This document shows positions 4,160-54,189 of a stretch of DNA of 64,000 bases, in pieces. Each line of letters starts with the position of its first letter. Positions within the stretch are counted from its first letter, which is position 1. The DNA comes from Delphinapterus leucas (lineage: Eukaryota > Chordata > Mammalia > Artiodactyla > Monodontidae), in NCBI RefSeq assembly GCF_002288925.2, contig NW_022098004.1, positions 10,797,182 through 10,861,181 on the forward strand. The letters are read 5' to 3'. The notes under the pieces are model-generated. The model worked only from the letters and a program-made list of their open reading frames with translations, did no database searches and was not told the DNA's origin. Made by a program: the position numbers and the translations under genes.

Positions 4160-5185
4160 TTTAAAAAATATGGGGTTTGCAAATGGGTACAGGAGCCAAC
4201 CTGAAATTGCTCCCAATAAGCAAAGCTGGAACAATTTGAGCAAATACATAGATAATACTAGTACTGGATTATATAACCCAAGAAACTAAATATCCACGAG
4301 TCTATGATAATGTGAATGAATCATTGAATGCATAAATAGATGGGGGGAAAGGAGGTCGATCTTCCTTACAGAACAATTTGAATTGATTCCAATTACTTTC
4401 CCTTCCCTGGAGTGTAGGCTGGACTTCTGGCTCACTTCCTAATGTTAGGGTATGGAGGGAATTCCCTTGGAAGTCCAGTGGTTAGGACTCTGCACTTTCA
4501 CCGCTGAGGGCACAGGTTCAATCCCTGGTTGGGGAACTGAGATCCCACAAGCCTTGCGGTGCGGCCAAAAAAAAAAAAAAAAAGAAAAGATAGGGTATGG
4601 AGAGAGAAAAGAAAAAGTGGCTTTACGTTGGAGAAGACATTGTAGAAACCACCTTAACCAAATGATCACAATTAACATCACCAGAGATACCACGGGCATA
4701 TAACATACTCCTGTTATGATTTCATGAGAAGGGTACTTGCTCTACGGGGATTTTTTTCTCCCATAAAAAATGTAACCCTAGCCTAATAATGAGAATACAG
4801 GAGACAGAAATCGAGGGATATAGTACAAAATATATGATCGATAAATACTGTTTACATTTTCTAAGTTGTACAAAAAAGGACTAAGAAACTGTCGAAGATC
4901 AGAGGAGACTAAGGAAACGTGACTAAATGCTGTGATGTTCTGGATTAGATTCTGGCACAGAAAACGACATTAATGGGGAAACTGGTGAAATCTGAACAGG
5001 GTCTGTCATTTAGTTAATAGTACTGTGCCCATATTAATTTTTCAGTTTTGACAAATGTACCCTGGTTATGTAAGATATTCTCCTTAGGGCAAACTAGGTT
5101 AAGGCTGTAAACAATTCTGTGTACCATCTTAGAATGTTTTCTGCAAATCTAAATTTATTCTAAAGTCTAAAAATGAATAGAACAA
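4160..5185 (+). mobile_element. old L1 (L1M class) 3' UTR
   Basis: Sense copy of the L1 3' UTR family, interrupted by the SINE at 4458. A related copy lies at 20280-21010, adjoining the duplicated block there too, so the insertion may predate the duplication. Confidence 0.65.
4458..4590 (+). mobile_element. CHR-1-type SINE
   Basis: About 130-bp tRNA-derived body with A/B-box-like region and A-rich tail, flanked by TAGGGTATGGAG at 4446-4457 and 4591-4602. Confidence 0.9.
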
Positions 5186-5729
5186 AACAAAATAGAGAAT
5201 GCGCTGTCTTTGAAGGACTCTAGAAAAGTTTGGTGTTGTGAAATTATGTTAAAAGGAGACATTTAATCAGTTCCCAAAATATGAACTGTTCAGACTCATA
5301 TCTAACTTGTGTCTGCACCTTACTGTGTTGTCATAGTGTTGGCTGTGCTTTATTTTATTTTTGGAAACATGTTTTACTTAAAAGTAGTCAAACTCACTAA
5401 CAATTTCCTGCATATTTTGTGCCTTTTGTATCTTGAAGTCCTAAAGATAGTCTCCTTTGTGTTATGATAAAATTTTAAAAGTTTTACTCTTTGGGAGCTA
5501 GAATACCCTCCCTTCTCTTGCCCAATGATTCTTGGGTTCAGCGAATCATCTAGGGAATGTTCGGGGCATGTCAGGTGGAGTTTGACTCCAGATCCCACTG
5601 GATCTGTTTCTTTGTCCAGGCTGTGTTTTGCTTTGGATGGAGTGAGAAGATGGCAGGAATTTTGGAATGGGAAGGGTTAGGGTCAGGCATGAGTTTGCTG
5701 GATGAATAAGAGATAAAAGGTAAATGAAG

Positions 5730-5938
5730 GGCTTCCCTGGTGGCGCAGAGGTTGAGAGTCCGCCTGCCGATGTAGGGGACGCGGGTTCGTGCCCTGATCC
5801 GGGAGGATCCCACGTGCCGCGGAGCGCCTGGGCCCGTGAGCCATGGCCGCTGAGCCTGCGCGTTGGAGCCTGTGCTCCGCAACGGGAGAGGCCACAACAG
5901 TGAGAGGCCCGCGTGCCGCAAAAAAAAAAAAAAAAGGG
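5730..5938 (+). mobile_element. CHR-2 SINE (about 210 bp)
   Basis: Starts GGCTTCCCTGGTGGCGCAG, has the GC-rich cetacean body and a poly(A) tail. Target duplication AAATGAAG. Absent from the duplicate at 21.6 kb. Confidence 0.92.
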
Positions 5939-6148
5939 AAATGAAGAATACAGAGGATCAAGGGGATTTTTCATCAGGATGGAGTTTGTTATCCTGAGAT
6001 TTATTTTCATATTATTTTCATAAATTTTATTAATGCATATGTTACTTATAGAAAGTAAACAAAACTTAAGGGTACAACTCAATGAACTTTCACAAAATCA
6101 CCCCAGCTTGTCCCCATTTCCCACATCAAGGAACCAAACATTATAACC

Positions 6149-6601
6149 CTACAGTGAAAGGACAGGCTGAAGTACTGCTTGGACTAACTTCAAGTAGTTT
6201 AAATGAACTGGAGGAGTTTTTGCATTCCACGTAGTTGTTAGGGGTCTGGATGGAAAGGTCACAGGATTAACAGTTGGATGAGCTGGTGGGGTCCTTGGGT
6301 GGAACGGTAGAGTTGTGTCCAGAAAAGTTATCATGTGTGCTGGGGAACTGTTGGGATTCAGGCTATAAGTGGGCAGGTGTACCTCAGGATTCTTCTTTGG
6401 AGGGGAAGGATTGGGCGCCACATCAACTTGGGTCCATTCACAGCCACCAGTCATGGAGGGCACACACTTGGAGTGCAAGGACTGGTTTCCTACCCATAAG
6501 CGGCAGCCTACATCCAATGACTGGTCTCGATGGGATATAAAAGTCCACAGACAACCCATTCCTGAAAATATAAACCCCATTCTGTAAGCCCACGGATCGA
6601 T
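6149..6601 (-). pseudogene. paralogous TIMP-like terminal exon with Pro/Thr-rich tail; exons 3-4 missing
   Basis: The frame from 6601 to the TAG at 6151-6149 encodes 150 residues. It starts Ile-Asp-Pro-Trp and runs without gaps against TIMP3 exon 5 up to Cys-Leu-Trp-Thr, but two conserved cysteines are Trp and Gly here. Then come Gly-Asn-Gln-Ser-Leu-His-Ser-Lys-Cys and Gly-Gly-Cys-Glu-Trp-Thr, as in the 22-kb copy. After that the protein continues about 95 residues in a Pro/Thr/Ser-rich tail to a stop aligned with the stop of the other copy. Five extra bases sit between the last AG and the codon where exon 5 should begin. The sequence jumps from here straight to material matching 29.2 kb, so exons 3 and 4 are deleted. 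The open frame is odd for a dead exon; a rearranged functional gene is possible but less likely. Confidence 0.7.
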
Positions 6602-7106
6602 ACTCACTACCCCACATATGTCCATCAGTGTCTCCATACACCACCGTCATCAACCCCAAAAGCCCTGTCACTTATCCCACAAACCCAGTTCACACTCCAC
6701 AGTTCCAGTGAGGTTTGTGGGCAAGGCCCCAGGTAGGCCAAGAAAGAAGAGCAGCATCAAGACCCTGCCGTCTCTGCTCACGTAAAGACTATGGTCCTTC
6801 TCAAAAATGACCAGTAGATGGCAGAAAAATATATGATTTGTATATGTAGACATGTGCTCCAAAAATTATGGAGCTTTGACAGTCTAGAGTTTTTCTAAGG
6901 ACACCGGCTCATCTGCCTGGTGAGTACTGAGAATTACAGATCATCGTGATATCATCAAATTTTCCATCAAGACGTTCTGTTCTCAGCCCACCGCTTATAA
7001 CACTGCCCACCTACTTCTATGTCACTTGTCCAAATCTGTACTTGTCAGAAGAGTGTTGTGGTTAATCTCACCTTTCTCTTCGTTAAAACCCATTAGGAGG
7101 AAATAA
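6602..7106. other. deletion-joint region of copy A
   Basis: Carries the junction between exon-5-linked sequence and sequence matching 29.2 kb, plus the CTCF-like motif. No exon 3 or 4 is present. Confidence 0.5.
6811..6824 (+). promoter_or_regulatory. CTCF-like motif, copy A
   Basis: CCAGTAGATGGCAG fits the CCASYAGRKGGCRS consensus at every position and is conserved in the duplicate. Motif match only; occupancy is unknown. Confidence 0.35.
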
Positions 7107-7114
7107 TCTACTTT

Positions 7115-7478
7115 TCTTTTTTTTAGGGATTTAAAATTTTATTTATTTATTTTTTTGGTTGCGTTGGGTTTTTGTTGCTGTGCGTGGGCTTTCTCTAGTT
7201 GAGGTGAGCAGGGGCTACTCTTTGTTGCAGTGCGCGGGCTTCTCATTGCAGTGGCTTCTTTTGTTGTGGAGCCTGGGCTCTAGGTGCATGGGCTTCAGTA
7301 GTTGTGGCTCACGGGCTCTAGAGCACAGGCTCAGTAATTGTGGCGTGCAGGCTCAGTAGTTGTGGCTCACGGGCTTAGGTGCTCTGTAGCATGTGGGATC
7401 TTCCCAGACCAGGGATTGAACCCATGTCCCCTGCATTGGCAGGCGGATTATTAACCACTGCGCCACCAGGGAAGTCCC
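7115..7478 (-). mobile_element. long CHR-type SINE (about 360 bp)
   Basis: Antisense copy ending CCAGGGAAGTCC, target duplication TCTACTTT (7107-7114 and 7479-7486). Missing from the aligned position near 29.49 kb. Confidence 0.9.
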
Positions 7479-7664
7479 TCTACTTTGAAAACTATAAAAG
7501 TCTTGAATGTGGTATTTCATGTTTCCTACTAGAGTTTTCTGCATTACAATAGAGATTTGGCAATCCAAAGTGATGAATGTGTAATAGAATGGTGTGTGAA
7601 TAATTTTGGACAAGGAAAGAGTTCATGGGCTTTTGAAATTAACTTGGTGGAGGCAGCCCTATAA

Positions 7665-7880
7665 TTTTAGTAATAATAATAAAAGCTGATATTTATTTAG
7701 CACTTACTATATGCTAGGCGCTGTATGAAGCATTTCATATTGGCACATTTAATTTTCACAATAACCCTAAGAAGTGATGGCTATTTAACAATTTTTTTTT
7801 TTTTTTTTACTAAGAAGTACAATGATGCCCAGAGAGTTCAAGTAATTTGTTCAAGGTCCTACAATTAGAAAAATGCTCAG
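7665..7880 (-). mobile_element. MIR SINE
   Basis: Antisense MIR: ATTTAGCACTTACTATATGC through the AAGGTCCTACAATTAG part. Aligned copy at 29700. Confidence 0.75.
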
Positions 7881-8170
7881 GACTTTTCCTTTTTATCTAT
7901 TCATACTACATGCAGTTAACAATGTGGTGCTTGTTGTTAGCATTGCTGGAGCTTTATGAATTCAGGTGAAATGTTATTGTTCTCTTGACACTGTGACACA
8001 TGGGTTAACATCTTCTCCTTCCTAGATCTGGGAAACAGTTTTAGCTGTGTTATCTTGAGTAAGTGTGACCGTAAATGAATGCTTAAGAGAGCACTGTGAT
8101 AGCATCCAGGCTGATGTTAGAGAATATTTTCAACCAGGACTGTCTTGCTGGCCCCAGGTTACATGACCCT

Positions 8171-8319
8171 ATTTTATATTATGTTCTGTTATGTTGTTAT
8201 GTTATTTTTCAGGCCGTGCCGTGTGGCATGTGGGATCTTAGTTCCCTGACCAGTGATGGAACCCGGGCCCCCTGCACTGGGAGCGTGGAGTCTTAACCAC
8301 CGGACCGCCAGAGAAGTCC
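8171..8319 (-). mobile_element. CHR-1-type SINE
   Basis: Antisense, target duplication CATGACCCT at 8162-8170 and 8320-8328. Not present in the duplicate near 30.2 kb. Confidence 0.9.
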
Positions 8320-8404
8320 CATGACCCTCTTTTAGTATGATGGAGTGGTTAAATCACACATCCTAGCTGCCAAGGGCCATCTTGAGTCTATCTTCTTCCT
8401 CCTG

Positions 8405-8504
8405 CACAGGCAGAACATCACTCAGTTCTTCCAACCTGATGTGTTTCTCTGGCGGTCTAGTTTGATGCTCATGGGCTTTGTGGAACAGCTCAGCCTCAGC
8501 ACCC
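8405..8504 (-). pseudogene. decayed counterpart of the exon-2 candidate
   Basis: Homologous to 30272-30366 within the duplicated block. It keeps the acceptor and Val-Leu start but runs into a stop unless the frame is shifted, and it lacks a GT donor at the expected end. Confidence 0.3.
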
Positions 8505-8514
8505 CTGGGACCGA
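8410..8514 (+). other. exon-like open segment, plus strand
   Basis: A strong pyrimidine tract and CACAG acceptor, a 105-nt interval open in one frame (35 codons, phase 2 in and out), and a consensus donor GA/GTGAGT. The duplicate at 30.29-30.37 kb keeps both splice signals but has stops. The frame joins correctly to the exon-like segment at 9362. I do not recognise the protein, and it overlaps the minus-strand exon-2 relic. Confidence 0.25.
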
Positions 8515-9361
8515 GTGAGTTTTGTCAGAGATGTGTTGTGTTGTGCCACGGTCCTGTGCCTAGAAAACAGCCTCCCTACTCACTGGCCCATCTCCTAACA
8601 CTGCTATAGTGGTTAGGATGCTGGGTTGAAAGTAAGAGAACCCAGCTCTGGTGAGCTCATTAAAAGGGAGGTAAGGAATCAGAGCCTACCTCATGGCACA
8701 TTGGATGGAAAGCAGCTGAACTTCAGGAGGGATGGAATCAGAAACTGGAAATCCTGAGATTTCTTTCTCTGCCCTCTGCCTATACCTCTGTCCAAACATC
8801 CTTATACCTCTCTCCACACCTCTCTCTCTATCTTTGTCATTTAATTCTGAGCCCCCAGCTTTCCTTGTTTCTGAATGAAAATCCTAACCACACAAAGCTC
8901 TCAAATTCCCATGTTTCGTGTTTAGCCACATAGGAAGATCTGCCTTGTTGGCCCCAATTCCAAGTTCCTCAGCAAATATCTGATGAGTTCAATTCTGAGA
9001 CTTGCCTTTTACCAGTCAGCTGTGGGTAGAGCAAGATCACGTGGTACACACATGGCTTCTGGGAGCCTGTCCCTACTGTGTGAGAGAGAGGGGCTCCAGA
9101 TGGAGTGCACAGATCCACAAGGCTGCAACAGACAGAGAAGCGTCTCTCCATAGTTGTGCTTGGGTAGACCTTGCTCAGAACAGTAACAGGGTAGTGGATG
9201 GCGTATGAGGCCCCCTCTGGGGCATTCCCTTAGGCCCTGGTGGATGATTGCCATATGATCACAGGTGTCTCTGGTCAGAGAACACTTTCGCTTGAGAGAG
9301 CTGTAGGGGCTGTGATCTCCGTCCCCTGTTTTCTGAAAGTGGCGCTCCTCTTCTCTTTTAG

Positions 9362-15147: not shown

Positions 15148-17360
15148 TTTTATTTTTTTAATTGAAGTATAGTTGATTTATAATATTGTGTTAGTTTCAG
15201 GTGTAAAGTGATTAAGTTACATATGTATATTCAGAACATTTTCCACTATAGGTTATTATGCGATATTGAATATAGTTTCCTGTGTTGTACAGTAAATCCT
15301 TGATGCTTATATATTTTATGTATAGTAGCGTGTATCTGTTAATCCCATACTCCTAATTTATCCCTCCCTCCACTCCTTTCCCCCTTTGGTACCATAAGTT
15401 TGTTTTCTGTGTCTGCGAGTCTGTTTCTGTTTTGTATAGTGATTCATTTATATTATTTCTTAGATTCCACATATAAGTCATATCATATGATATTTGTCTT
15501 TTTTTTCATAAATTTATTTATTTTGTTTATTTTTGGCTGTGTTAGGTCTTCATTGCTGTGTGTGGGCTTTCTCTAGTTGCAGCAAGTGGGGTCTACTCTT
15601 TGTTGTGGTGTGTGGGCTTCTCATTGCGGTGGCTTCTCATTGTGGAGCATGGGCTCTAAGTGCTTGGGCTTCAGTAGTTGCAGCATGGGGGCTCAGTAGT
15701 TGTGGCTCACAGGCTCTAGAGCACAGGCTCAGTAGTTATGGCACATGGGCTTAGTTGCTCTGTGGCATGTGGGATCTTCCTGGACCAGGGATCGAACCCA
15801 TGTCCCCTGCATTGGCAGGAGGATTCTCAACTGCTCTGCCACCAGGGAAGCCCCTGATATTTGTCTTTGTCTGACTTACTTAGTATGATAATCTCTAGGT
15901 CCATCTATGTTGCTGCAAATGACAATATTTCACTCTTTTTTATGGCTGAGTAATATTCCATTGTATATATATGCCATATCTTCTTAAACCAGTTGTCTGT
16001 TGATTGGCACTTGGGTTGTTTCCATGTCTTAACTATTGTAAATAGTGCTGCTATGAACATTGGGGCGCATGTATCATTTTGAATTAGAGTTTTCATCTTT
16101 TCCAGGTATATGTTCAGGAGTGGGATTGCTGGATTGTAATGCAGCTCTATTTTTAGATATTTAAGGAACCTCCATACTGTTTTCCATAGTGGCTGCACCA
16201 ATTTACATTCCCACAAACAGTGTAGGAGAGTTCCCTTTTCTCCACACACTCTCCAACATTTATTATTTTTAGGCTTTTTGGTGATAACCATTCTGTCCAG
16301 TGCGAGGTGCTACCTCACTGTGGTTTTGATTTGCATTTCTCTAATAATTAGCAATGGTGAGCATCTTTTCATATGCCTGTTGGCCATCTGTATGTCTTTT
16401 TTGGAGAAATGTCTATTTAGGTCTTCTGCCCTTTTTTCGATTGTTTGTTTGTTTTTCTGATATTGAGTTGTATGACCTGTTTGTAAATTTTGGAAATTAA
16501 GCCCTGTTGGTCACATCATTTGTAAATACACTCTCCTTTCAATAGGTTGTCTTTTCATTTTGGTGATGATTTCCTTTGCTGTGCAAAAGCTTTTAAGTTG
16601 GAATAGGTCCCATTTATTTATTTTTGCTTTTATTTCTTTTTGCCTCAGGAGTTGGAGCTAAGAAAATATTGCCACAATGTATGTCTGAGAATGTTTTGCC
16701 TATGTTCCTTTCTAGGAGTTTTATGGTGTCATGATTTATAGTTAGGTCTTTAAACCATTTTGAGTTTATTTTTGTATATGGTGTGAGGAAGTGTTCTGAT
16801 TTCACTGATTTACATGAGGCTGTCCAGCTTTCCCAGCACCACTTGTTGAAGAGACTGTCTTTTCTCCACTGTCTATTCTTGCCTCCTTTACTGTAGATTA
16901 ATTAACCCTAGAGGTATGGGTTTATTTCTGGGCTGTCTGTTCTGTTCCATTGATCCATATATCTGTTTTTGCGCCAGTATCACACTCTTTTGATTACTAT
17001 AGCTTTGTAGTATTATCTGAAGTCTAGGAGGGTTATGCCTCCAGCTTTGTTCTTTTTCCTCAAAATTACTTTGGCAATTCTGGGTCTTTTGTGGTCCCAT
17101 ATAACTTTTAGGATTGTTTGTTCTAGTTCCATGAAAAATGTCATGGGTATTTTGATAGGAATCACATTAAATCTGTAGATTGCTTTGGGTAGCATGGCTG
17201 TTTAAACAATATTAATTCTTCCAATCCAAGAGAGTGGAATATCTTTACATTTCTTTGAACCATCATCAATTTCCTTTATCAGTGTTTTATGATTTTCAGC
17301 ATATATGTCTTTCACCTCCTTGGTCAGGTTTATTCCTAGGTATTTTATTTTTTGATGTGA
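15148..17360 (-). mobile_element. L1 3' half, antisense
   Basis: 3' UTR and the C-terminal part of ORF2. The translation at 16291-15905 shows the typical Gly-Glu-Lys-Gly-Thr-Leu-Leu-His-Cys and Tyr-Thr-Met-Glu-Tyr-Tyr blocks. 5'-truncated and interrupted by a SINE. Confidence 0.9.
15501..15854 (-). mobile_element. long CHR-type SINE
   Basis: Inserted in the L1, target duplication TGATATTTGTCTT at 15488-15500 and 15855-15867. Confidence 0.93.
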
Positions 17361-20279: not shown

Positions 20280-21009
20280 ATACATGAATTAGTATGCATA
20301 CATTTATCTTCTAGCTCTGTTTACTGAGAGGGCCTGGAAGCAGTGACCCCAGTGACAATGAACAACCCAGCGCCCAGGTATGGGTTTCTAAATTCCATTG
20401 TTCAGTTATAGAAAAAAAAAATAACCACGGGCATGGTCAATAGAGTGTAGAAAAGGAAAAATCATGGCTTTACAGTGGAGAACCCTGGCAGACACCACCT
20501 TAACCAAGTAGTCATTGTTATTATCATGAGTGATGTAGTGTCAATGCTATGTACTTGTGATATGGTGCAATGAAAAAAATATTTCCTCTTTGTGGCCCTC
20601 TTCCCCAAAATTGATAGCCCCAGTCTAATCATGAAAACATATCAGCCAAACCCAAATTGAGGAACAGCCTGTGAAACACCTGACCAGAAAAATTGCAAGG
20701 TCATCAAAAACAAAGTTAAACTAAAAAGCTATCACAGACCAGAGAAGACCGAGGAGGCAGGATGACTAATTTCTGCAGTGTCCAGGATTGGGTTCTGGCA
20801 CAGGTGAAAGGAAAAGGTGTAGAAGTCTGAACAGAGTGTCATTCAGTTCATAATATTGTATTCATGTTAATTACTTAGTTTTGCCAAATGTATCATCATT
20901 ACATAAGATGTTATCATTAGGGCAAACTAGGTAAATATGAATTCTCTGTAATCATTTTGGTACTGTTTTTTTGTAAATCCAAAATTATTCCAAAATTGAA
21001 TAAAATGAA
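20280..21009 (+). mobile_element. old L1 (L1M class) 3' UTR
   Basis: Sense copy corresponding to 4600-5185 and adjoining the duplicated block. Confidence 0.6.
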
Positions 21010-21690
21010 TAGAGAAGACACTGTTTTCAGAAGGACTGTGGAAAATTTTCAAGGCGAAAAATTGTGTTCAAAGGAAAACTTCAATTAATTCCTTAAAACA
21101 TTCATTGTTGAGACCTCATTTTTACCATAATGCTGTAAGTCTGCTATCATTCCAATCTATGTCTGCATCTTATATTTTTATAGTGTTCATGGTGCTTTAT
21201 TTTACTTTCGGAAAGATGTTTTATTTTTAAAGTAGTCAAATTTATTAATATTTTTCTTCATATTGTGTGCCTTTTGAGTTTGAAGTCCTAAAAATATTCC
21301 TCTTTTTGTTCTTGTAAAAGTCTGAGTCTCATATTTTATTCTCAGGACTTTGCTCTGACAAAGAATGATTTTTATATTTGCAAAGGAGTCTTGATTCAGT
21401 GGGAATAAGGATTATTTTTCCTCCCTGGCCCAGTAATTCTTACTTCTGCGTATCATGTGGGAAAGGGTCAGGGCATGTCAGGTAGAGACTGACTCCAGTC
21501 TCTCTGGATTTATCCCTTTGTGTGAACCCAGGGCTCTTGCTTTTGGTAGGTTGGGGAAATGTCAGGAACTCTGGAATGAGAGGGATTAGGGTCAGGCATG
21601 CTGTTGCTGGATCAATAAGAGATAAGAGATGATTGAAGAATTGAGAAGATGAAAGGAATTTGTTACCAGGGTGGGTTGGCAAGCTTGGGA

Positions 21691-21711
21691 TTTATTTTTA
21701 TAAATTTTATT
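21691..21711 (-). promoter_or_regulatory. candidate poly(A) signals of the TIMP-like gene
   Basis: Two AATAAA hexamers on the minus strand (21711-21706 and 21696-21691) lie about 115-135 nt after the stop codon. Equivalent hexamers occur in the paralogous copy at 6031-6026 and 6005-6000, so the arrangement predates the duplication. Confidence 0.5.
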
Positions 21712-21827
21712 GATGCATACACTACTTGCAGAAAGTAAACAGAACTTAAGTGTTCACCTCAATGAATGTATACAAAACTAACTCAATTCTGTTAAGAATA
21801 GCCAAGTCAAAAAACAACATTAAAACC

Positions 21828-22061
21828 CTATAATGTAAAAGGTAGCATCTCAGGAATTGTTTCTGGAGTAGTGGTTTCGGGTTGATAATTATGGGTCTGG
21901 ATTCTGGTCCATTCACAGTGACCATAGCGCATGAGGGCACACATGGAGTACAAGGACTGGTTTCCTTCCCATATATGGTAGTCACAGGCTCTCTGCTGCC
22001 ACACACACTCTTTGACATCAGGTTGAGGGCAAGGGCGCCAGCAGAGGAGGCATGGCTGAAC
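21828..22061 (-). CDS. TIMP-like terminal exon 5
   Basis: Starts after a CCACCTCTAG acceptor in phase 0, encodes 77 residues and ends in TAG at 21830-21828. It is the C-terminal TIMP subdomain: Val-Gln-Pro-Cys, Arg-Pro-Cys, Glu-Cys-Val-Trp, Gly-Asn-Gln-Ser with a Cys six residues on, and Gly-His-Cys-Glu-Trp-Thr-Arg. It has seven cysteines where the corresponding exon of known TIMPs has five. The extra two are in Leu-Leu-Cys-Trp and Arg-Ala-Cys. The last 25 or so residues are Thr/Pro/Glu-rich and have no TIMP counterpart I recognise. Confidence 0.9.
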   Translation of the reverse strand, partial: VQPCLLCWRPCPQPDVKECVWQQRACDYHIWEGNQSLYSMCALMRYGHCEWTRIQTHNYQPETTTPETIPEMLPFTL

Positions 22062-22862
22062 CTAGAGGTGGAGAGAGACCCAGGGCTTGTTGCCACCCCC
22101 TACCCACTCCTGTTCACAACCCCACCCTAAAAAGACAAGGGTCTGAATACAGGTAGAGGCTAAAGGGAAGAGTGAGGGGGGCGGGGAACAGGAGGGAAAC
22201 TGGGGCAGGAGGCGGCCAGGGAATAGGAAGAAGGTGAGAGAGCAGGGGTCATCCATAGAGGGAGATAGAACGGAGAGAGCTCTGGGCACAAGGACGTGGG
22301 ACAACCACCAGTGCCTGGGCTGCAGAGAAAAAAGGCTTAGGAGGCCACTCACGTGACATTTGCATCCTTTTTTGTACAGTGCCTTGAAACCTAATCTCTG
22401 CTCCCTGGTGAGCCGGTACCAGAAGTATACCGGGTGGCATTTTGTGAAGTACAGCGCCTCCCTCCTCAGATACCCTGCGGTGATCAGAGAGCACGACCTG
22501 AGAGTCAACACAGCCTGTGTGGGTGACCCCAGGGAAGGACACGCTCTGACCCCTAGGTAGTTGGCCCCAGAGGGTCTGGAAACCCTGAGGCTGGTATGGA
22601 GTCAGCCATGAATGATGGTCCAGCATTCTTCCCTGGGAAGTATCTGTGAGATCATGGAGAAGGGGCCCTTGGTCCTCGGCGGTGCTACAGTTGCAGAAGT
22701 AGAGTGGGTAGCAAGGCGAAGGGGCTGTATGTGGACAGGGTGCTCACCTGCAATAAGTAATTGTGATTGTTGAGAAGTCCTCACCTCATAACCACAGCTA
22801 TCCCAATCCTTGGATGTGTAAACATAATTGATTTTGGGGGCCTTCCTGGGAAACTTGAGTAT
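21828..22862 (-). CDS. TIMP-like metalloproteinase-inhibitor gene, exons 3-5 (partial gene, intact 3' half)
   Basis: Three exons on the minus strand, 22862-22748, 22474-22353 and 22061-21828, join in one frame to give 156 residues and a stop. Seen: every junction has AG acceptors and GT donors, and the phases (0 in, 1/1, 0/0) agree across both introns. The product reads as the second half of a TIMP. It has the Tyr-Val-Tyr-Thr strand followed by Ser-Cys-Gly, a Leu-Leu-Ile-Ala-Gly exon end, a Leu-Thr-x-x-Gln-Arg-x-Gly-Phe helix, a Gly-Cys-Lys-Cys exon end and a terminal Gly-His-Cys-Glu-Trp. Known: TIMPs are secreted netrin-fold proteins whose N-terminal Cys chelates the metalloproteinase zinc. 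Inferred: a secreted TIMP relative, too divergent to be TIMP1-4. Exon 1, with the signal peptide and the critical Cys-x-Cys, was not found, so inhibitory activity cannot be judged. Exon 2 is only tentatively placed at 30.3 kb. No disabling mutation is visible in these three exons. Confidence 0.88.
22353..22474 (-). CDS. TIMP-like exon 4
   Basis: 122 nt, acceptor ATCACCGCAG and donor GTGAGT. Two bases complete the Gly shared with exon 3, then come 40 codons in phase 0. It shows Phe-Thr-Lys-Cys (the Cys99 equivalent), an aromatic-rich stretch, the family helix Leu-Thr-Arg-Glu-Gln-Arg-Leu-Gly-Phe and the closing Gly-Cys-Lys-Cys. The Cys count and spacing match this exon in TIMP1-4. The exon is only about 280 nt from exon 3 and 290 nt from exon 5. 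Confidence 0.9.
22748..22862 (-). CDS. TIMP-like exon 3
   Basis: 115 nt, preceded by a pyrimidine-rich tract ending CATCACAG and followed by GTGAGC. It encodes 38 residues plus one base. The motif order is that of TIMP exon 3: hydrophobic start (Ile-Leu-Lys-Phe), Ile-Asn-Tyr-Val-Tyr-Thr, Asp-Ser-Cys-Gly-Tyr, and Leu-Leu-Ile-Ala-Gly across the junction. The single Cys matches the TIMP residue that pairs with the N-terminal Cys (Cys70 in TIMP numbering). The phase (0 at the start, 1 at the end) fits the next exon exactly. Confidence 0.88.
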
Positions 22863-23407
22863 CTGTGATGGGAGGGATAGAAAGAGTAGGACCTCAGTTT
22901 TTCATAGAAGTTGCTGGTCTCTAGAAAACATCCAGTTCCCTTGGCAAGAGCAGATTGGACAACTTGTGATTTTGAGGGAAGAGGGTAAGAAGGAAGTGTT
23001 GGGTAAAAAATTAAAATGCTGTACTAAATGGTTTTAGGTCTGAGAGGGGAAAAATCCCTTTCATAGCTGTTGACTACAGAGCAAAATTAAATCCCTGTTA
23101 CCATTCAGTAAAGCTGGTTATGAACAGCTAAGCTCAATTTTGAGTTCAGAAACTCAAAATTTGACCATCTTGCTATGTCGCCTAAAGAGTAAATGGTCTA
23201 AGTAAAGGCGAAAGTACTAATTAGAACATAAAAAGATGGAGAGTTTTACGATGTTTAAGTTGAGTGACAAAGAAAGTTTGGTAGAATGACTAAAACAAAA
23301 CTATGGCAGCAGGGCAGGGAGAAGAGCAAGGAAGTTTTGAATTAATTTTTAATATTTATTTTCACATTTGCTTCATTGACGATAAGAATAGTATCCATAC
23401 CTCATTC
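22863..23407. other. intron of the TIMP-like gene (inferred)
   Basis: Upstream of exon 3. I searched for exons 1-2 on the minus strand and found none convincing. Confidence 0.4.
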
Positions 23408-23560
23408 CTTGATTCAAGTATTATTTATTGAGTGCCTAGTATAAGCCAGGACCTGAGGAAATGGGACGAAGACAGTCTTTGCCCTTAAGGATTCCAAGTT
23501 AATAGGAGAGTATGTTGGTGGTGGTAGGTGGCTAAGAAGTGTGTCATAATAGTATGACAA
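23408..23560 (-). mobile_element. MIR-like remnant
   Basis: TATTTATTGAGTGCCTAGTA start and following motif fit antisense MIR, but it decays quickly. Confidence 0.4.
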
Positions 23561-23827
23561 GTGCATTAGGACACATAAGAGACACCTTATATGGTCTTGA
23601 GGGTGGGATAGAGCATGAGAGGGATTTATTCTAAGCTTGAAACTTAGAGAAATGTGCAAAAAGTGACAATAGAACAGGAATCTTAATAGTTAATTACTAT
23701 GTTTTGATGGAATCAGCTCTACAATGGGAGATAGAATTGACCTGGCTGGTGACAAGGAACCAGTCTCACTGTTGTCGTTTTATGTATCTATAAGATTAAA
23801 AAGAGCAAGTGAAGGTAACTTAAGATC

Positions 23828-23886
<59 letters not shown>
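23828..23886. repeat. (CT)n(AT)n compound microsatellite
   Basis: Pure CT run passing into TA. Confidence 0.95.
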
Positions 23887-23889
23887 AAA

Positions 23890-25234
23890 AGCATGAAAGA
23901 CATGAAAAGGAAATCAAAGACAGGTGAAAAGATTTTGAGTCAAAAGATAATAGGGACATGACTTTAACAAGCAAGAGCAAGCTTAAATAACTATTAAGAA
24001 TAATTAATACTAATATTTATTCTTATAATTAATATTCTTGAGATACACACTGCTATACTTAAAATGGATAACCAACAAGGACCTACTGTATAGCACAGGC
24101 AGCTCTGCTCAGTATTATGTAACAATCTAATCAGGAAAAGAATTTGAAAAAGAAAGTTAACATGCACAATTTTGAAATAAAGCAAGAGATGACAGCATGT
24201 CCTTTCAAAGTCATACTAGGTCATTGGTGAAAGGTCTCATCCAAGGATTATTTAATTATCTAAGCGAATGCGTCCGTATTTAACTTTTTTCCTTATTATT
24301 TGACGGGAGCATTGAAACACTGATTTTAGACGTTAAATTTTACATTTCTGTCCAGTCAGAAATCTAAACTCCAAAGATTTCAGTTTATGGCCCTGAAGGG
24401 CATTAACCAGTTTTGCATCTATTAACAAATTTGTTTCAGCATCCCATTGAATGACTATTTAAATTTCTGTTCCTTGAACTCTACTTTGAACCAGGTGTAC
24501 CATCTAAGTGATTTCTTAAGTTATTAAATATATATTGAATTGTTGACATGTGCTTATCATATGTTTACATGAGTCAAATTTTTACCTTTTTGAAATTATC
24601 CTTCAGTAAAAGTCATTACTTTTCTAGGGAAGTCCAGCAGGAAATATTGATGTTTTGAGACATTATTTGATAATGGACAGCACACGACCACTCGGTTAGA
24701 GTAATTCGAAAGCCTCATTTGCTATTGGCCTGCAAACTGGGTCAAAAGTCTGAAGTTCCCAATGGGCTCCATCCCAGAGATAAGGCCTTAGAGATAAAAT
24801 GGTCCTCCAGCCCATCCAGATCCAGTCTTATTGTTGAGTGAAGAATCCATTATTTTGTTCTAGCACTATTTTTATATGTGTACAAAAACAAATTTGAAAG
24901 GATAATCACCATATCTCAGAGCAGGAAGGTATAAAATTATAAGGGATTTTCACTTCCCACTATACAATTGTATCATTTAAACATTTGAAAGTGAGCATAT
25001 ATTAGCTTTAATAAAACAATAAAAATATCCCGCATTGAAAAATGTCAATTTCGTATTATTTATGTAACCCTTTGCAATCATCATGGATAATTTGAGATGG
25101 ACTCTCCTACTTAAATGTTTTTCTCCATTGGATGAATATTTAAAGTTCAATAATAATAATGCTGTTACTGGCAGTGCGCTCCTCCCCCCAACTGAACCTA
25201 TTCCCTGAACCAATACTGTCTATCATGTATAAGA
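23890..25234. other. unassigned, inferred intron
   Basis: AT-rich single-copy DNA without repeats I can name. Confidence 0.35.
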
Positions 25235-25420
25235 GATATTTGATATATGTTATCTCATTTAATCCTCAGTACTTTTTTTGGAGTGGATGTAACAATCACA
25301 TTTTAGGGATAAGGTAAACGGAGGCCTTAAAAGGTTAAATTATTTCATCAAGCCAAGTTGGGATTTCATGGTCCCCAATTCCATGCCTCTTCTGCTATTC
25401 CACACCACCTCTGTTCTACT
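25235..25420 (-). mobile_element. MIR SINE
   Basis: ATCTCATTTAATCCTCAGTA and following segments of antisense MIR. Confidence 0.65.
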
Positions 25421-26570
25421 GTATAGTGTTCATATTAAAATGCAAAAACATGAGCAAATTTCCAGAATGCAAGGCCCCAGTCATTTCATTATTCCTTTGA
25501 GATAAATCTAATCTGGTCACAAAAAACTCGGAAGGTGTAAATTGCATAATGATGATGGGTGAGGGCCACTGTTTTCACAAATGTCTCCATCCCAGATTCG
25601 TTTCCCTGTAGAAGTAGTAAAGCCAGTCGGCAGCATCACTCTTCAAAGAATTAGAAAACAAGAAGGAGCACAAAATCATTTCCAAGTCACCTGCTGCCAG
25701 AAAATAAGATTTGAATGGATTTTCTAATGTTTCAAAGTACTTCCTTGCAGATAGATAAGAAATTCATAAAACCAGCCATGAGAGTTATATTGCCTGTAAG
25801 TGTAAACAGTCATGATAGAAGAATGACTGCAAACACCCAGAGAGCCTTTTAAGAGGAGACGGATAATAGGTTATATATCTCAGAGAGGAAGAAAAAGGCC
25901 CCTTTGATCATTCTCATGCAAATCCCCAATAGCCGACAGAAAGCTGCTTTAGGTTGTGCCATATTTTCTTTTTAAAATGCGTATGGAACAACTAGCTTAG
26001 AAGTAATGATGTCCTTTTGAAGATGTTTTTTCTTAAATTGGAAACAATTATGGGAGTTAGACTCTTCCTTTTTTAAAATAGAAATTTGTCTGTAACTCAT
26101 CCTCTGGAAAATTCCTTCAGAGGCGAAGAGAACACAACAATGCAATTAGCTTCTGGATTTGTTTATCACAGTGGCTTAGAGTCCCCTCTCCTTTCTCTCC
26201 ATCTTGTATGTAATCAGAAAAAAGAGGCACAAAACACCAGCACCAGCTGCCTCATTTCCTATTCCTTGGATTTCAATAGAGGCACACAAAATGGTCTCCT
26301 GACTCAGCTGAATGAGGTAGAACGGTGCAGTTAAGAACCTTTTTTTTGTTTGTCTGTTTAATCTGCTACGACCTATTTCTCCAAACACAATTCCTTCCTG
26401 GTGCCCTTGACTTCTCTGGCCATTGTGATGGGTCACCGGTTGTCAGATCACGTGGGATCCCTTATTGGTTGCTTCCCTCTGGCTCTCTCTCCAATTGTTT
26501 GGAACAGTGATATAATTCTGCAGAGTGTAGCGGCACTCCCCAGTCAGATGGGGAGGTAGGAGCATCTTTG
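25421..26570. other. repeat-free single-copy stretch
   Basis: No transposon signature over more than 1 kb. No convincing exon; could include conserved noncoding DNA. Confidence 0.35.
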
Positions 26571-26690
26571 CCCAAGTCCTTCTCCCAGCCTAGAATGCCC
26601 TACTCCCCTTCCTCCACCAGTATCTTCAAGGTACAGCTTCAGTGCCACCTCTCCCACTGACAGACTCCTTCCCACCATCAGGCATTGCAG
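26571..26690 (-). mobile_element. L2-like LINE remnant
   Basis: CCTAGAATGCCCTACTCCCC and the following cytosine-rich pattern resemble antisense L2. Confidence 0.45.
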
Positions 26691-28311
26691 AACTTTCACA
26701 AACTTAATCACCAGACCCACAGAAGAGACCAGGACTTAATTATTCTCTAATTATTTTTGGGTAATGTAGCTTAGAGTTATTTGTTTCTTCATTAATTGAA
26801 CACCATCCTTGGGGTCTTCTGGAGGATGGATTGAAGATGAAGAACACACAGTCCATGCCCTTAAGGACCTGCCAGTTTCCTGGCAGTGGCAGACAAGTCA
26901 GCAGCTTTCACAGCTGGGTAGGAAAACTCCCCTCAAATTTGAATTGTTCCAAACTGAACCTTGTCTCCTTCCCCCAAACTTAATGGCAACAGCAATCAGT
27001 CCCGAAGTGACTCAAGTCCATCCCCTTGGGGTCACCCTTGCCTCTGCCTTCTCCCCATTCCCAGGTCCAGTTATTAATGACCAAGTCAGCAACCCCAGAA
27101 CCTGATGAGCACCCCTGGGCCTTCACCCACACTGGGCCTTCTGCCTGAATATTCTCCTTTAGTCTGGTGAGATCAAAAGAAAGGAGTCTGTGAGGACTAA
27201 CGCAAAGTCTAGGAAAAGTTTGCATGGGACCTATATGAGTTACGACTATTATTATTTGAAAAGGCAGAAAACTCAACTCAAGCTGCCTTAAATAATTAAC
27301 AAACTTTATTGGCCAGCAGGGAAAGGGTGAGACTTGGTCCGGAGCTCCAGTGATCTGACCAGGATTCAGTTTCTTTCTCCATTTCTTTTTTTCTTTGGTG
27401 CTTACTCCAATTTCTAGTAGTCTTTCCCCTCTCATCCCCAAGATGGTACAAGCAACTTCTTTGGCTACATATGTCCTGCTTCTGTCCAGAGGGATTGGAG
27501 AGAGTCTGTTTCTCAGAAGTCTGCAGAAATTTCATTGATCACTGACTCAGGTTGGATTATGTGTCCACCCTGAACCGACCACTGTGGCCAGGAGAAGGGT
27601 CATTTAGAGTGGCCTGTGGCAATACAGGTTCACTCTAGGCTTGGAAGTGAGGTGAAGACTACTCAAGCCATAGCAGGGAATAGTTTTTCGAAGAAAGTTC
27701 AGGTGCTGCAGCCGGTAGGGAAGTGGGGAGGCTGAGAAAGCAGTAAACAAATGTCCCTTCTAGGGCCCAATCCATGCATGCTTTGATGGCATGATGCAGG
27801 TTCGGACTGAGTGATGGCAGCTGTGGGAAGCCAGCGGGATCTTAAGGAGTCCATTATTTTCAGATTTCTCTCTCTTAATTATTGGAAAGAATAGTGATGA
27901 AGGGAAAGGAGAGATTTTAGAAGCCAGTAGAATGTTAGAGAGTATGATAATGTGTAAAGAGCATGGCAGTCCTTTTGGGGAAGAATTAAACCAATCTGTG
28001 TCATGACAAATGGAAAAATCAAGGTTAAATAAATCCAACAAATGAATAAATGACTATGTGTTAAAGCGTTTCTGTCATTCATCAAGGAAGAGCTGAGTAT
28101 TAGAAACAAGTCACTTGTTCATTGCTCTTTGCATTTTACGTATGGACTTGAGAGTAAATGAATCCGTTTCATACAGCCTCTATAAGGCAATTAAGAAGGA
28201 AGAGCCCCCCCCAAGTGGCAGATGGTGTGGAAACATTGTGCTCACCCACCTTACCACTCTGTTGTCCTAGAGACTAGTAAATTAGTTAACTGTCTAAATG
28301 TTATAATTTCT
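26691..28311. other. unassigned with ancient-repeat texture
   Basis: 27300-27640 looks repeat-derived but I cannot assign a family. No exon recognised. Confidence 0.3.
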
Positions 28312-28329
28312 CCTCAATTTAGTTTTATT

Positions 28330-28708
28330 TAAATTTTTTTTATTTTTAAAGATTTATTTATTTATTTTGGCTGCATCGGGTCTTAGTTGCAGCACGTGGG
28401 ATCTTCGTTGAGGCACACGGGATCTTTCCTTGTGGCATGAGGGCTCTTTGCTGCGGCATGCGGGCTTCTCTCTAGTTGTGGTGTGCGGGTTTTCTCTTCT
28501 CTAGTTGTGGCACGCGGGCTCCAGAGAGCATGGGCTCTGTAGTTTGCGGCTCGCGGGCTCTCTTGTTGAGGCGTGCGAGCTCAGTAGTTATGGCGCGTGG
28601 GCTTAGTTGCCCCGCGGTATGTGGGATCTTAGTTCCCTGACCAGGGATGGAACCTGCATCCCCTGCATTGGAAGGTGTATTCTTTACCACTGGACCACCA
28701 GGGAAGTC
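28330..28708 (-). mobile_element. long CHR-type SINE
   Basis: Antisense, 18-bp target duplication CCTCAATTTAGTTTTATT at 28312-28329 and 28709-28726. Confidence 0.93.
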
Positions 28709-29245
28709 CCTCAATTTAGTTTTATTAATGAAGGAAGTATAGATATACTTCTTTAAACAAAGATTTACAATCTGAGGGGACACTAGAACATCAGAGTATT
28801 AGAGCTAGCAGGGACCAGCCAGGGTGACTTATCTGATAGATGAGAAAACAGATTGGGAGAGAGAAGTGACAGGCTGATGCCATGTGGAGAATCAGTGGCT
28901 AAGCTATAGGTCTTTGAATAGCCAGTCTGGGGTTTGAGCCTCCTTGAGGACTCAGGCCTTTGTTTTTCTTCCCCTCTCATGTAAGATCTCAGGGGCAGCT
29001 CCTGGAAAGTGTAAGCTGGAAAAGATGCCTGGGAGCCAGTGAATTCTTCTTCTTCTTTTTTAATGGCTTTATTAAACTATAATTGATATGCAAAACCTGA
29101 ACATATTTAACGTACATTAAATTTGATGTGTTTGGACATATATGTACACTTGTGAAATTATGATTCCACTTATGTGAGGTACTTAAAATTGTCCAGGGTG
29201 GGACGCCTTTTATGTGGGCATAAAGGCTGTTGTCCTCAAAAATGA

Positions 29246-29259
29246 CCAGTAGATGGCAG
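29246..29259 (+). promoter_or_regulatory. CTCF-like motif, copy B
   Basis: The same 14-base motif as at 6811, at the aligned position of the duplicated block and embedded in a conserved stretch. Confidence 0.35.
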
Positions 29260-29699
29260 AAAAAATCCATGTACCTGGTAAGGAGGCACCTGTTCCTAAA
29301 AGTCTGAAGCTCTGAGTATCTGTTATATCAGGAGATCAGCTCTCTGCCTGGTGAGTATAGAGACTTACGGAGCACTGTGATACCAGCCCACCCCCATGTC
29401 AGTCCTCCAGATCTTTACCTCTTTCAAGAGTCTGATGGTTAATCTCATTCTTCTTTTCATTAAAACATATTAGGAGGAAATAATCCACTTGGAAAACTAT
29501 TTTATAAAAGGCTTGAATGACCGACCATTAGGTCGCATTTCATATTTCCTACTAGAATTTTCTTGCGTTACAGTAGAGATTATTTGACAACCCAAAGTGT
29601 TGAATCTCTGATGGCCTGAGTGGTGTCTGAAATAGTTTTGGATGAGGCAAAGTCCACCTGCCACTGAAATCGAGTCAGTGGAGGCAGCCAGGTACTTCT

Positions 29700-29900
29700 A
29701 GTAATAATAATAACGTATATTTATTCAGCATGTATCATGGGCCAGGTACTATACTAAGCACTTTGTATTAGTAAAGTTATTTAATATTCACAATAATCAT
29801 ATGAAGAAATGCATATTAATGCTGTTTTACAGAAAACTATACAGAAGCCCAGAGAGTTTAAGCAATTTGCTAAAGGTCATATAATTAGAAAAATGTAAGT
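29700..29900 (-). mobile_element. MIR SINE (duplicate of 7665 copy)
   Basis: Aligned with the MIR of copy A, so it was present before the duplication. Confidence 0.75.
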
Positions 29901-30271
29901 GATTTAAAAAAATGTATTCCTACTACACGGAATTCACAACATTGGTGCTTGATGTCAGCATCGTTAGGGTTTCATGAATGCAGATGAAAAGTGATTGTCT
30001 CTTTGGCCCTGTGATGCATGTACTAAAATCTTCTGCTCATCACTGGACCACTGGAAAGAATGAATCTGGGAAACTGATTTAGCTAGGTTTTCCTGAGTAA
30101 GGATGAGCATAAATTCTTAAGGGAGGATTGTGGCAATGTCAAGGCGGATGTTAGCAGAGTATTTTGAAGTGGGACTTTCCTGCCAGCTCCAGGTTACATG
30201 GCCTTCCTTAGTGCAATGGAATAGTTAAATCACACATCCTAGCTGCTTTGAGATGCCCGCTCAAGTCTACC

Positions 30272-30366
30272 CTCCATCTCCTTTGCAGACAGAACACATC
30301 CAATGTGATGTGTTTCTCTGTTGTATAACCTGATATTCAAGAAATTTATGCGGGATGTCAGCACCC
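30272..30366 (-). CDS. candidate TIMP-like exon 2 of the same gene
   Basis: After a TGTTCCAG acceptor the frame reads Val-Leu-Thr-Ser-Arg in the position of the TIMP Val-Ile-Arg-Ala-Lys. It stays open for 31 codons and ends Ser-Ala-Lys-Glu-Met-Glu, resembling the Ile-Lys-Gln-Met-Lys end of TIMP exon 2. The length (about 95 nt) suits that exon. Against it: the nearest GT donor is one base late (after 30271) and would shift the frame into exon 3. The opposite strand also has plausible splice sites here. The paralogous site near 8504-8405 is frame-broken. Treat as tentative; the exon may already be decayed. Confidence 0.35.
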
Positions 30367-30860
30367 CTGGAACAGAGTGAGTTTTGTCAGTGATGTCGTG
30401 TGTTGTGGCACAGCCCTGTGCCTCGCAAACAGCCTCCCTGTTCACTGGCCCATCTCCTAACACTTGCTGTAGTTGTTAGGATTCTGGACTGAAAGTAAGA
30501 GAACCCACCTCGAGGCAGCTCATTCAAAAAGTGGCTACAAAATCAGTTCAAGTGTACCTCATGGCACATAGGGCGGGAAGGAGCTGGACTTCAAGAGTGA
30601 CGGAATCCAAACCTGAAAAGATCCTGAGATCTCTTTCTCTGTCCATCTCCTGCCCCTGCTTATGCTTCTTTCTGTACATATTCATTCATCTTATTTCTTA
30701 GACCTGAACTTTTCCTGCATCTTCATAAATATCCTGGCCACCCACAACTCTAAAATCCTCATGTTATGTGTTCTGCCACACAGGAAAATGTGACTTGTTG
30801 GTCCCCTAACCAAGTTCCTCACAGAAATATATGATGGGCTTCTTCTGGGACATTATTATG

Positions 30861-34439: not shown

Positions 34440-35295
34440 TTTTTTCCAATTTTATTGTGATACAATTGACATACATCACTGTATATGTTTTAAGGTGTAT
34501 AGCATAATTATTTGACTTACATATGTCATGAAATGATTACCACAGTAAGTTCAGTGAACGTCCATCACCTCATATAGATACAAAATTAGGGAAAGAGAAA
34601 AAAATTATTTTTCCTCGAGAAGTCTTCGGATTTACTCTCTTAATTTTCATACGTAATATACAGTAGTGTTAATTACATTCATCATGTTGTATATTACATC
34701 CCTAGTAGTTATTTATCTTATGACTAGAAGTTTGTGCCTTTAGAATGCCTTCATCTAATTATCCCTTCCCCCATCCCCCTGCCTCTGGTAACCTCAAATC
34801 TGATCTCTTTTTCCATGAGTTTGTTTGTTTGTTTTGGAAGTACATTGACCTACAAAGTTTTGAACACTTCCTGGTGAACAGGACAGTGATTCCATGTTAC
34901 TATACATTTCAAAACATTCGCCATGATAAGCCTAGTTACCATCTGTCACCATACAAAGATATCACATGATCATTGACTATATTCCCCACACTGTACATTT
35001 CATACTGTGGCCTTTATTTTGTAACTGGTAGTTTACACCTCTTGATCCCCTTCACCTGTCTCTCTCCTCCCCTCACTACCCTGTCCTCTGGCAACCACTT
35101 GTTTGTTCTCTGCATCTATGACTCTGTTTTTGTTGTGTTTGTTCATCTGTTTTGTTTTTCAGATTCCACATATAAGTGAAGTCACGCAGTATTTGTCTTT
35201 CACTTTCTGACTTATTTCACTAAGCATAATACCCTCTAAGTCCACCCATGTTATCACAGATGGCCAGATTTCATTCTTTTTATGGCTGAGTAATA

Positions 35296-35337
<42 letters not shown>

Positions 35338-36078
35338 CACATCTTCTTTATCCATTAATATATCAATGGGCACTTAGGTTGCTTGAATATCTTGGCTATT
35401 GTAAATAATGCTGCAATGAACCAATGGGTGCGTATATATTTTTTCAATTAGTGTTTTCATTTTCTTCAGATAAATACCCTGGAGTGGAATTGCTGGATCA
35501 TATGGTAGTTCTCTTTTTAATTTTTTGAGGAATCTCCATACTGTTTTTCATAGTGGCTGTACCAATGTACATTCCCATCAACAGTGCGTGAGGGTTCCTC
35601 CTTTTCCACATTCTTGTCAACACGTGCTATCTGTTGTCTTTTTGATGACAGCCATTCTGATAGATGTGAGGTGATATCTCATCGTGGTTTTGACTTGCAG
35701 TTCCCTGATGCTTAGTGACGTTGAGCATCTTTTCCTATGCCTATTGGCCATCTGTATGTCTCCTTTGAAAAAATGTCTATTTGGGGTCCATCCCATTTTT
35801 CAATTGGGTTTTTTTTAAAACTCAGTTCTTTGTGTATTTTGGATATTAGTGCTCCTCTCTGTTTGTGGGTTGTCTACCTGGGGGTGTAGGTCTTGACTAT
35901 ATCACATCACACTCCTCCTACCCATCTTGTTGTGGTTCCTTTTTTATATCTTTAGCGATAGAAGATCTTTTATGCTAGTCTTCTCATCAGTAGTTGTTCT
36001 GTAAATAGCTATTACTTTGGTCAGCCGTGGGAGGGGGTGAGCTCAGCGTCTTCCTACTCCACCATCTTGGCTGCCCCT
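34440..36078 (-). mobile_element. L1 with internal deletion, antisense
   Basis: Runs from 3' UTR through part of ORF2 to about 35870 and then joins 5'-end sequence. CCACCATCTTGGCTGCCCC near 36060 is the reverse of an L1 5' start. Most of ORF2 and ORF1 is missing. Confidence 0.75.
35298..35336. repeat. (TG)n microsatellite inside L1
   Basis: Pure TG run replacing part of the ORF2 end. Confidence 0.95.
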
Positions 36079-36270: not shown

Positions 36271-36744
36271 TGTGTAAGTGAATATTACTTCAGTCTCTTG
36301 GTTACACACTTCAAGGGATTTATATTTACCCCTACTCCTTTGTCCCTGGCTGGCACTAACCTTTCTAATAAATACAGAACTTACAGGTATAGAGTTCATG
36401 AAGAAACAAGCAATTTTTTGTTAACTTACTTTGCAGATGCAAAGCATTTTAGGAATAGTAGATTCAGTGCTTGCAGCTGCAAAACTTCCATTAAGTTTTA
36501 TGTATCGTCCTCTTCTCTTCCCTTGATGAAATAAAATGCTAGAGATACGTATATTGAGTAACAATTAGAATTAGTGAGAGACAATGACCAAGTCTTTAAA
36601 ACTCTCAAATAAGAGGAAAGTTGGCCATCCTTTGGGAGGAAAGAAAGCCCTCCTTTACCTCAATTAACAGGTGAAACCACCAGGATTCTGCCTAAATAAC
36701 AAAAGTAATTGAAGTTGCATTTATATGTCACAAGAGAATCTTTT
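36271..36744. other. unassigned
   Basis: No repeat or exon recognised. Confidence 0.35.
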
Positions 36745-38105
36745 TTTTTTAAACATCTTTATTGGCGTATAATTGCTTTACAATGGTGTGTTAGTCTCTG
36801 CTGTATAACAAAGTGAATCAGCTATCCATATACATATGTTCCCATATCCCCTCCCTCTTGCGTCTCCCTCCCACCCTCCCTATCCCACCCCTCTAGGTGG
36901 TCACAAAGCACCGAGCTGATCTCCCTGTGCTATATGGCTGCTTCCCACTAGCTAGATATTTTACATTTGGTCGTGTATATATGTCCATGCCACTCTCTCA
37001 CTTCGTCCCAGCTTACCCTTCCCCCTCCCCGTGTCCTCAAGTCCATTCTCTACGTCTGCGTCTTTATTCCTGTCCTGCCCCTAGGTTCTTCAGAAACTTT
37101 TTTTTTTAGATTCCATATATATGTGTTAGCATACGGTATTTGTTTTTCTCTTTCTGACTTACTTCACTCTGTATGACAGACTCTAGGTCCATCCACCTCA
37201 CTACAAATAACTCAATTTCATTTCTTTTTATGGCTCAGTAATATTCCATTGTATATATGTGCCACATCTTCTTTATCCGTTCATCTGTGGATGGACACTT
37301 AGGTTGCTTCCATCTCCTGGCTATTGTAAATAGAGCTGCAATGAACATTGTGGTACATGACTCTTTTTGAATTATGGTTTTCTCAGGGAATATGGCCAGT
37401 ACTGGGATTGCTAGGCTGTATGGTAGTTCTATTTTTAGTTTTTTGAGGAACCTCCATACTGTTCTCCATAGTGGCTGTATCAATTTACATTCCCACCAGC
37501 AGTGAAAGAGGGTTCCCTTTTCTCCACACCCCCTCCAGCATTTATTGTTGGTAGAGTTTTTCAGTGATGACCATTCTGACTGGTGTGAGGTGATACCTCA
37601 TTGTAGTTTTGATTTGCATTTCTCTAATGATTAATGATGTTGAGCTTCTTTCATGTTGGCCATCTGTATATCTTCTTTGGAGAAATGTCTGTTTAGGTCT
37701 TCTGCCCATTTCTGGATTGGGTTGTTTGGTTTTTTTTGATATTGAGCTGCATGAACTGCTTGTATATTTTGGAGATTAATCCTTTGTCCGTTGCTTCGTT
37801 TGCAAATATTTTCTTCCATTCTGAGTGTTGGCTTTTCGTCTTGTTTGTGGTTTCCTTTGCTGTGCAAAAGCTTTTAAGTTCCATTAGGTCCCATTTGTTT
37901 ATTTTGTTTTTATTTCCATTTCTATAGGAGGTGGGTCAAAAGGATCTTGCTGTGATTTATGTCATAGAGTGTTCTTCCTATGTTTTCCTCTAACAGTTTT
38001 ATAGCGTCTGGCCTTACATTTAGGTCTTTAATCCATTTGGAGTTTATTTTTGTGTATGGTGTTAGGGAGTGTTCTAATTTCATTCTTTTACATGTCGCTG
38101 AGAAT
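36745..38105 (-). mobile_element. cetartiodactyl L1 3' end, 5'-truncated
   Basis: Starts with oligo(T), then the young L1 3' UTR and the end of ORF2 in antisense (Thr-Met-Glu-Tyr-Tyr block near 37240). Truncated near 38100. Confidence 0.9.
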
Positions 38106-54000: not shown

Positions 54001-54009
54001 CACTTCGCA

Positions 54010-54150: not shown

Positions 54151-54189
54151 TGGTGCAGGGAATTTTTTCTTTGTCCTGCATCTAAGCCT

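Follow-up and report, generated by a model that had tools for sequence, protein, structure and literature searches.

In TIMPs the free amino group of Cys1 binds the catalytic zinc, the S/A-V/L pair before C70 is part of the inhibitory ridge, and C70, C99 and C124 pair with Cys1, Cys3 and Cys13. Four canonical TIMPs are counted in the vertebrates studied, according to one paper (PMC10755359). In pig, a gene named 'metalloproteinase inhibitor 1-like' (ENSSSCG00000039747) appears together with CNTNAP4 in an association study, as bordering two SSC6 regions at 10.8 and 11.1 Mb (PMC6610066); this was the one relevant paper found, and there was no study of a fifth or TIMP1-like mammalian TIMP among the literature matches listed. 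The Plethodontid TIMP-like Protein (PTP) is an amphibian family member of unknown function that was matched by mass spectrometry and makes up ~10% of a pheromone extract, as described in PMC6487043.

The locus described here lies in a window of 64,000 nucleotides of Delphinapterus leucas DNA. It comprises three TIMP-like exons, called copy A, and a second TIMP-like exon 5, called copy B, which lies ~15 kb away in the same orientation.

Exon structure and family membership of copy A

Copy A is encoded on the minus strand. Exon 3 (22748..22862, 115 nt, phase 0 to 1; ILKFP...LLIAG) carries the C70 equivalent, exon 4 (22353..22474, 122 nt, phase 1 to 0; YLRR...GCKCH) carries those of C99, C124 and C127, and exon 5 (21828..22061, VQPCLLCWRPC...CEWTRI...LPFTL) is 234 nt long including the stop codon, with an AATAAA 117 nt 3' of it (21706..21711, minus strand). 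Joined, the three exons form an open frame of 156 codons closed by a stop; 5/5 junctions show AG or GT, and there is not one lesion in 471 nt. The phases are identical to those of TIMP1 in this genome (exon 3 0 to 1, exon 4 1 to 0, exon 5 0), and the first residue of exon 3 is that of TIMP1 exon 3 in the same genome and also, as read off the profile matches, that of the TIMP3 and TIMP4 exon 3 starts. An earlier sequence-only reading, which held that minus-strand exons 3, 4 and 5 splice in frame over 156 codons without a stop and keep the TIMP exon structure, was exact in its coordinates and splicing and agrees with the phases and exon 3 boundary of this genome's TIMPs. It had mentioned neither copy B nor the absence of recognisable exons 1-2.

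Splice sites were scored with a simple weight matrix and ranked against every AG or GT of the window. All five copy A sites fell within the top 6% of their own kind: the acceptors of exons 3, 4 and 5 in the top 0.69%, 4.4% and 5.9% of 8741 AG, and the donors of exons 3 and 4 in the top 0.11% and 1.5% of 6562 GT. Because it stands in the top 0.7% of the window, the exon 3 acceptor suggests that an upstream exon may still be used, or was used lately.

A profile search, which the sequence-only reading had proposed, did return TIMP: copy A matched the Pfam TIMP profile (PF00965) with 63 bits (E 4e-17, profile positions 62-183 of 183), against a curated cut-off of 23.1 bits. The top PDB match of the protein was TIMP-1 chain 7s7l_B (E 8.6e-14). 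A first exon profile had included copy A itself, and a repeat was made from TIMP1-4 alone. This repeat gave 18.1, 19.5 and 11.1 bits for copy A exons 3, 4 and 5 and 9.4 bits for copy B, while other frames reached 9.1 bits. Since exon 5 and copy B are weak by themselves in this profile, the family assignment of copy A is founded on the Pfam and PDB matches, and that of copy B on its likeness to copy A.

Nine of the 12 cysteines of the TIMP family lie in exons 3-5, and all of them (9/9) are present in copy A, as is the C-terminal CxW, in the form CEW; the exon 3 and exon 4 cysteines and the CxW had been listed as kept from the sequence alone. Among the 30 columns constant across human TIMP1-4 over exons 3-5, copy A keeps 23, made up of the nine cysteines and 14/21 others. 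In the variable columns its residue equals that of any of TIMP1-4 in 31/100. Over exons 3-5, copy A is thus like TIMP1 in exon order, boundaries and phases, in its nine cysteines and in its final CxW, and TIMP1 also gives the highest percent identity among the four human TIMPs: 35% (44/125), compared with 30% for TIMP3, 28% for TIMP2 and 27% for TIMP4 (first 136 residues). These values bear out the strong divergence from TIMP1-4 noticed earlier. When raw alignment scores are compared, TIMP3 comes out slightly above TIMP1 (165 vs 153). The tree that had been called for was built with seven sequences; copy A sits there on an end branch of 4.68, and its placement is not settled.

Besides its low identity, several features set copy A apart from TIMP1. 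The pair directly before C70 is D-S, whereas all four TIMPs have the S/A-V/L of canonical MMP inhibitors. Exon 5 holds, besides five conserved cysteines and an N-Q-S sequon common to copies A and B (by eye), two additional cysteines, the first adjoining a two-residue insertion (PCLLCWRPC) between C132 and C137 and the second after C145. Finally, no exons 1-2 were recognised in the 141 kb upstream. A structure prediction for exon 5 alone gave a pLDDT of 49.7, too low for use. On the profile match, the phases, the cysteines and a locus of its own, copy A is, as judged from its sequence, a TIMP family member by descent.

Genomic position and the tandem duplication

Scanning all 2.35 Gb of the genome with a TIMP profile gave 10 matches, which were exons of TIMP1-4; the scan missed the contig of copy A itself (C13), so its sensitivity is limited. 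TIMP2 (C27), TIMP4 (C67), TIMP3 (C46) and TIMP1 (C59) lie on four other contigs, and on this evidence the copy A locus is a fifth TIMP locus of the genome. With the copy A protein as query, the whole genome gave eight matches: its own three exons, copy B exon 5 (E 0.026) and four at E 1.3-4.8, two of these on TIMP1 and TIMP3. A 1201-base DNA query from the locus matched only itself and copy B. No TIMP-like copy besides A and B was found in these whole-genome protein and DNA searches.

Copy A lies ~54 kb upstream of a match to MON1B (10765453-10765731 of the same contig), in the same orientation, and TERF2IP is found on this contig at 12.12 Mb; both were identified by their translations. A second Rap1_C match (G000:C28:11255929-11256126, E 4.5e-7) is perhaps a TERF2IP copy. 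In human the gene order is TERF2IP, CNTNAP4, MON1B. Because the pig gene is named with CNTNAP4, and copy A is near MON1B and on the contig of TERF2IP, ENSSSCG00000039747 probably lies in the same interval, and copy A is probably its counterpart by position alone. The pig gene, which PMC6610066 places with CNTNAP4 on SSC6 and which is TIMP1-like by name, was compared with copy A by position and name only. A gene of the copy A type has thus probably been machine-annotated already and probably occurs in more than a single lineage. The sequence-only reading had proposed an additional, lineage-restricted TIMP. The additional family member stands, while the pig gene and its neighbourhood make lineage restriction doubtful.

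Copies A and B belong to an old tandem duplication, with a B segment at 4880..9001 and an A side within 20720-30851 (both minus strand), which is usable as an internal clock for the locus. The 3' flank of copy A (20720..21823, minus strand) is duplicated as 4880-6144, with 73% identity and a K2P of 0.345. The upstream part of the duplicated segment, at 29221..30851 (minus strand) on the A side, has its counterpart at 6783-9001 in copy B. In global alignments the duplicated stretches show 73-75% identity and a K2P of 0.31-0.35, a great age that also argues against lineage restriction. Across 2533 sites in four blocks there were 45 gaps of ≤30 nt, four longer gaps being left out of the count, and 33/45 were not multiples of three.

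The exon 5 remnant of copy B (6149..6562, minus strand) consists of 137 codons and a stop (GCLWT...GNQSLHSKC...GGCEWT, followed by a long tail rich in P/T/S). In the whole-genome search 68 nt of it matched copy A exon 5 DNA with 83% identity (E 1.8e-8), and its stop and 3' flank are alignable to those of copy A, with an AATAAA (6026..6031, minus strand) inside that flank. The 22.0-29.2 kb stretch of copy A, which runs from inside exon 5 upward and includes exons 3-4, has no counterpart in B except SINEs; the best alignment of B 6560-6790 to this stretch scored 27, and shuffles averaged 28. The alignments therefore indicate that copy B is without exons 3-4. From 6562 its exon 5 frame runs through 137 codons without interruption, and the open P/T/S tail has a probability of 0.006 of carrying no lesion if neutral throughout. 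Despite the open tail, copy B is treated as a probable pseudogene, a dead duplicate, because exons 3-4 are missing. A mucin-like stalk was considered for the P/T/S tail and set aside for the same reason. Near 6757, copy B has a hydrophobic start (by eye) that runs into a stop and lacks a clear donor, and the segment 30472-30372, in which 87/100 columns are conserved between the copies, is not coding, its frame being broken in B (by eye).

Neutrality, upstream exons and alternative readings

The neutral model assigned to copy A one half of the A/B distance (0.165) and the same share of the rate of frame-breaking gaps. For the 471 nt plus ten splice bases it predicted 9.1 lesions, and the probability of none was 1.1e-4, or 5.7e-4 without the splice sites. 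In a simulation of 4000 runs, without splice sites, the frame remained open in 0.1% when the whole branch since the duplication was neutral, and in 3.2%, 17% and 48% when only the last half, quarter or tenth was neutral; copy A was chosen for looking intact, so these neutrality figures are optimistic. These runs reject neutrality over the entire branch since the duplication, and neutrality over its last quarter is compatible with the data. The earlier argument that a frame without frameshifts is not neutral therefore holds for the full branch but not for its last quarter. From the open-frame rates for the whole and half branch, constraint probably acted on copy A over roughly half, or more, of the period after the duplication. 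In the 24 aligned A/B exon 5 codons there was no sign of purifying selection: dN was 0.35 and dS 0.22, a figure made unsure by small mutually cancelling A/B gaps there (by eye), and differences at codon positions 1/2/3 numbered 7/9/3.

TIMP exons 1-2, which encode the signal peptide, Cys1-x-Cys3, Cys13 and the VIRAK strand, were not recognised by profile and scans in the 141 kb upstream of copy A, within which there are four assembly gaps: runs of N at 45188-45287 (100 bases) and 62677-63076 (400 bases), and two farther upstream. Over 204 kb (the window, 100 kb above it and 40 kb below), an exon 1-2 profile gave nothing >8.2 bits, and nothing >5.9 bits on the minus strand upstream. A motif scan that looked for a start codon followed by hydrophobic residues and CxC...C returned four plus-strand frames and none on the minus strand. 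In a splice-aware exon 2 scan the best minus-strand score was 10.0 (485 candidates) vs 10.25 for the plus-strand control (567 candidates), with this genome's TIMP1 and TIMP4 exons reaching 53.0 and 52.5 as a benchmark; the scoring was built from TIMP1-4, and an exon as diverged as copy A 3-5 could be missed. With four gaps in the upstream stretch, the inhibitory front of copy A may be either absent, changed past recognition or within a gap.

Individual candidates were rejected. One exon 2 candidate ending at 31902 (KIKQ, then GTGAGG) has a stop 14 codons upstream and surroundings that look like L1, and those near 51668 and 52654 have stops nearby and no usable splice sites (by eye). Upstream of copy A exon 3, at a distance of ~31 kb, 53501-55500 is CpG-rich (GC ≤64%, observed/expected CpG 0.72-0.78) and holds no recognised gene. 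The sequence flanking the 100-base gap at 45188-45287 is repeated at 36741-36863. One repeat occurs at 15860-17353, 35100-35814, 37046-38100, 58246-58993 and 59213-60805 with 66-86% identity, and is L1 ORF2-like by its protein motifs.

We lean towards copy A being a real, fast-diverging TIMP1-like gene whose first exons are unseen and which is alive, or was alive until lately. A rival that we consider rather less probable, and still a serious one, is that copy A is a recently dead relic, in which exons 1-2 have been deleted or have decayed in this lineage and exons 3-5 stay open for lack of time. This would fit the failure to recognise exons 1-2 upstream, the sister copy B without exons 3-4, the excess of dN over dS in the short exon 5 comparison, and an open frame in 17-48% of runs when neutrality was limited to the last 25% or 10% of the branch. 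The five splice sites are still strong, however, there are 0 lesions in the coding stretch, and the assembly gaps could hide the missing exons.

It is improbable that live exons 3-5 have been joined to a non-TIMP first exon and now encode a secreted, non-inhibitory binding protein. No TIMP exon 1-2 was recognised, yet the exon 3 acceptor is very good, and the extra cysteines and sequon of exon 5 would suit such a product. There is, however, no candidate first exon, and C70, C99 and C124 are all kept although their partners sit in TIMP exon 1; their retention points to the usual exon 1 having been present for most of the history of copy A. That the frames are open by chance, or that copy A is a processed copy of some known TIMP, can be set aside as extremely improbable, given the spliced in-frame exons, the introns with TIMP phases, the Pfam match and, against a processed copy, identities to human TIMP1-4 too low for a near-identical source.

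Proposed function and meaning

As the favoured TIMP1-like gene, copy A would represent exons 3-5 of an old, fast-diverging family member in the MON1B/CNTNAP4 interval, transcribed from upstream exons that may be too diverged, inside an assembly gap or >141 kb away. Its product would be a secreted, disulphide-knotted TIMP-like protein. The conserved cysteines of its C-terminal domain are those of the usual three disulphides, and this domain, with its two extra cysteines and new sequon, may bind an extracellular partner. Classical MMP inhibition would be weakened or lost, because D-S replaces S/A-V/L before C70 and the reactive Cys1 was not found; with these residues changed, it is doubtful that the product works as an inhibitor. 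PTP (PMC6487043) shows that TIMP-family proteins can gain new secreted uses. The comparison is an analogy only, and no common copy is claimed.

A fuller proposal, which we put forward tentatively and regard as unlikely in its entirety, is that a fifth mammalian TIMP-family gene near MON1B pre-dates the tandem duplication, is present in pig as well as here, has shed MMP inhibition and encodes a secreted binding protein with a possibly reproductive role. The pig annotation limits how new the locus is, and the interest lies in a mammalian fifth TIMP locus with no study among the matches listed. If such a locus is real, long constrained and probably common to pig, the count of four TIMPs would be revised for some mammals, and the locus would offer a natural test of which parts of a TIMP MMP inhibition requires, and which parts signalling requires. 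If copy A is dead here, it would still be a good case of the birth and loss of a TIMP gene.
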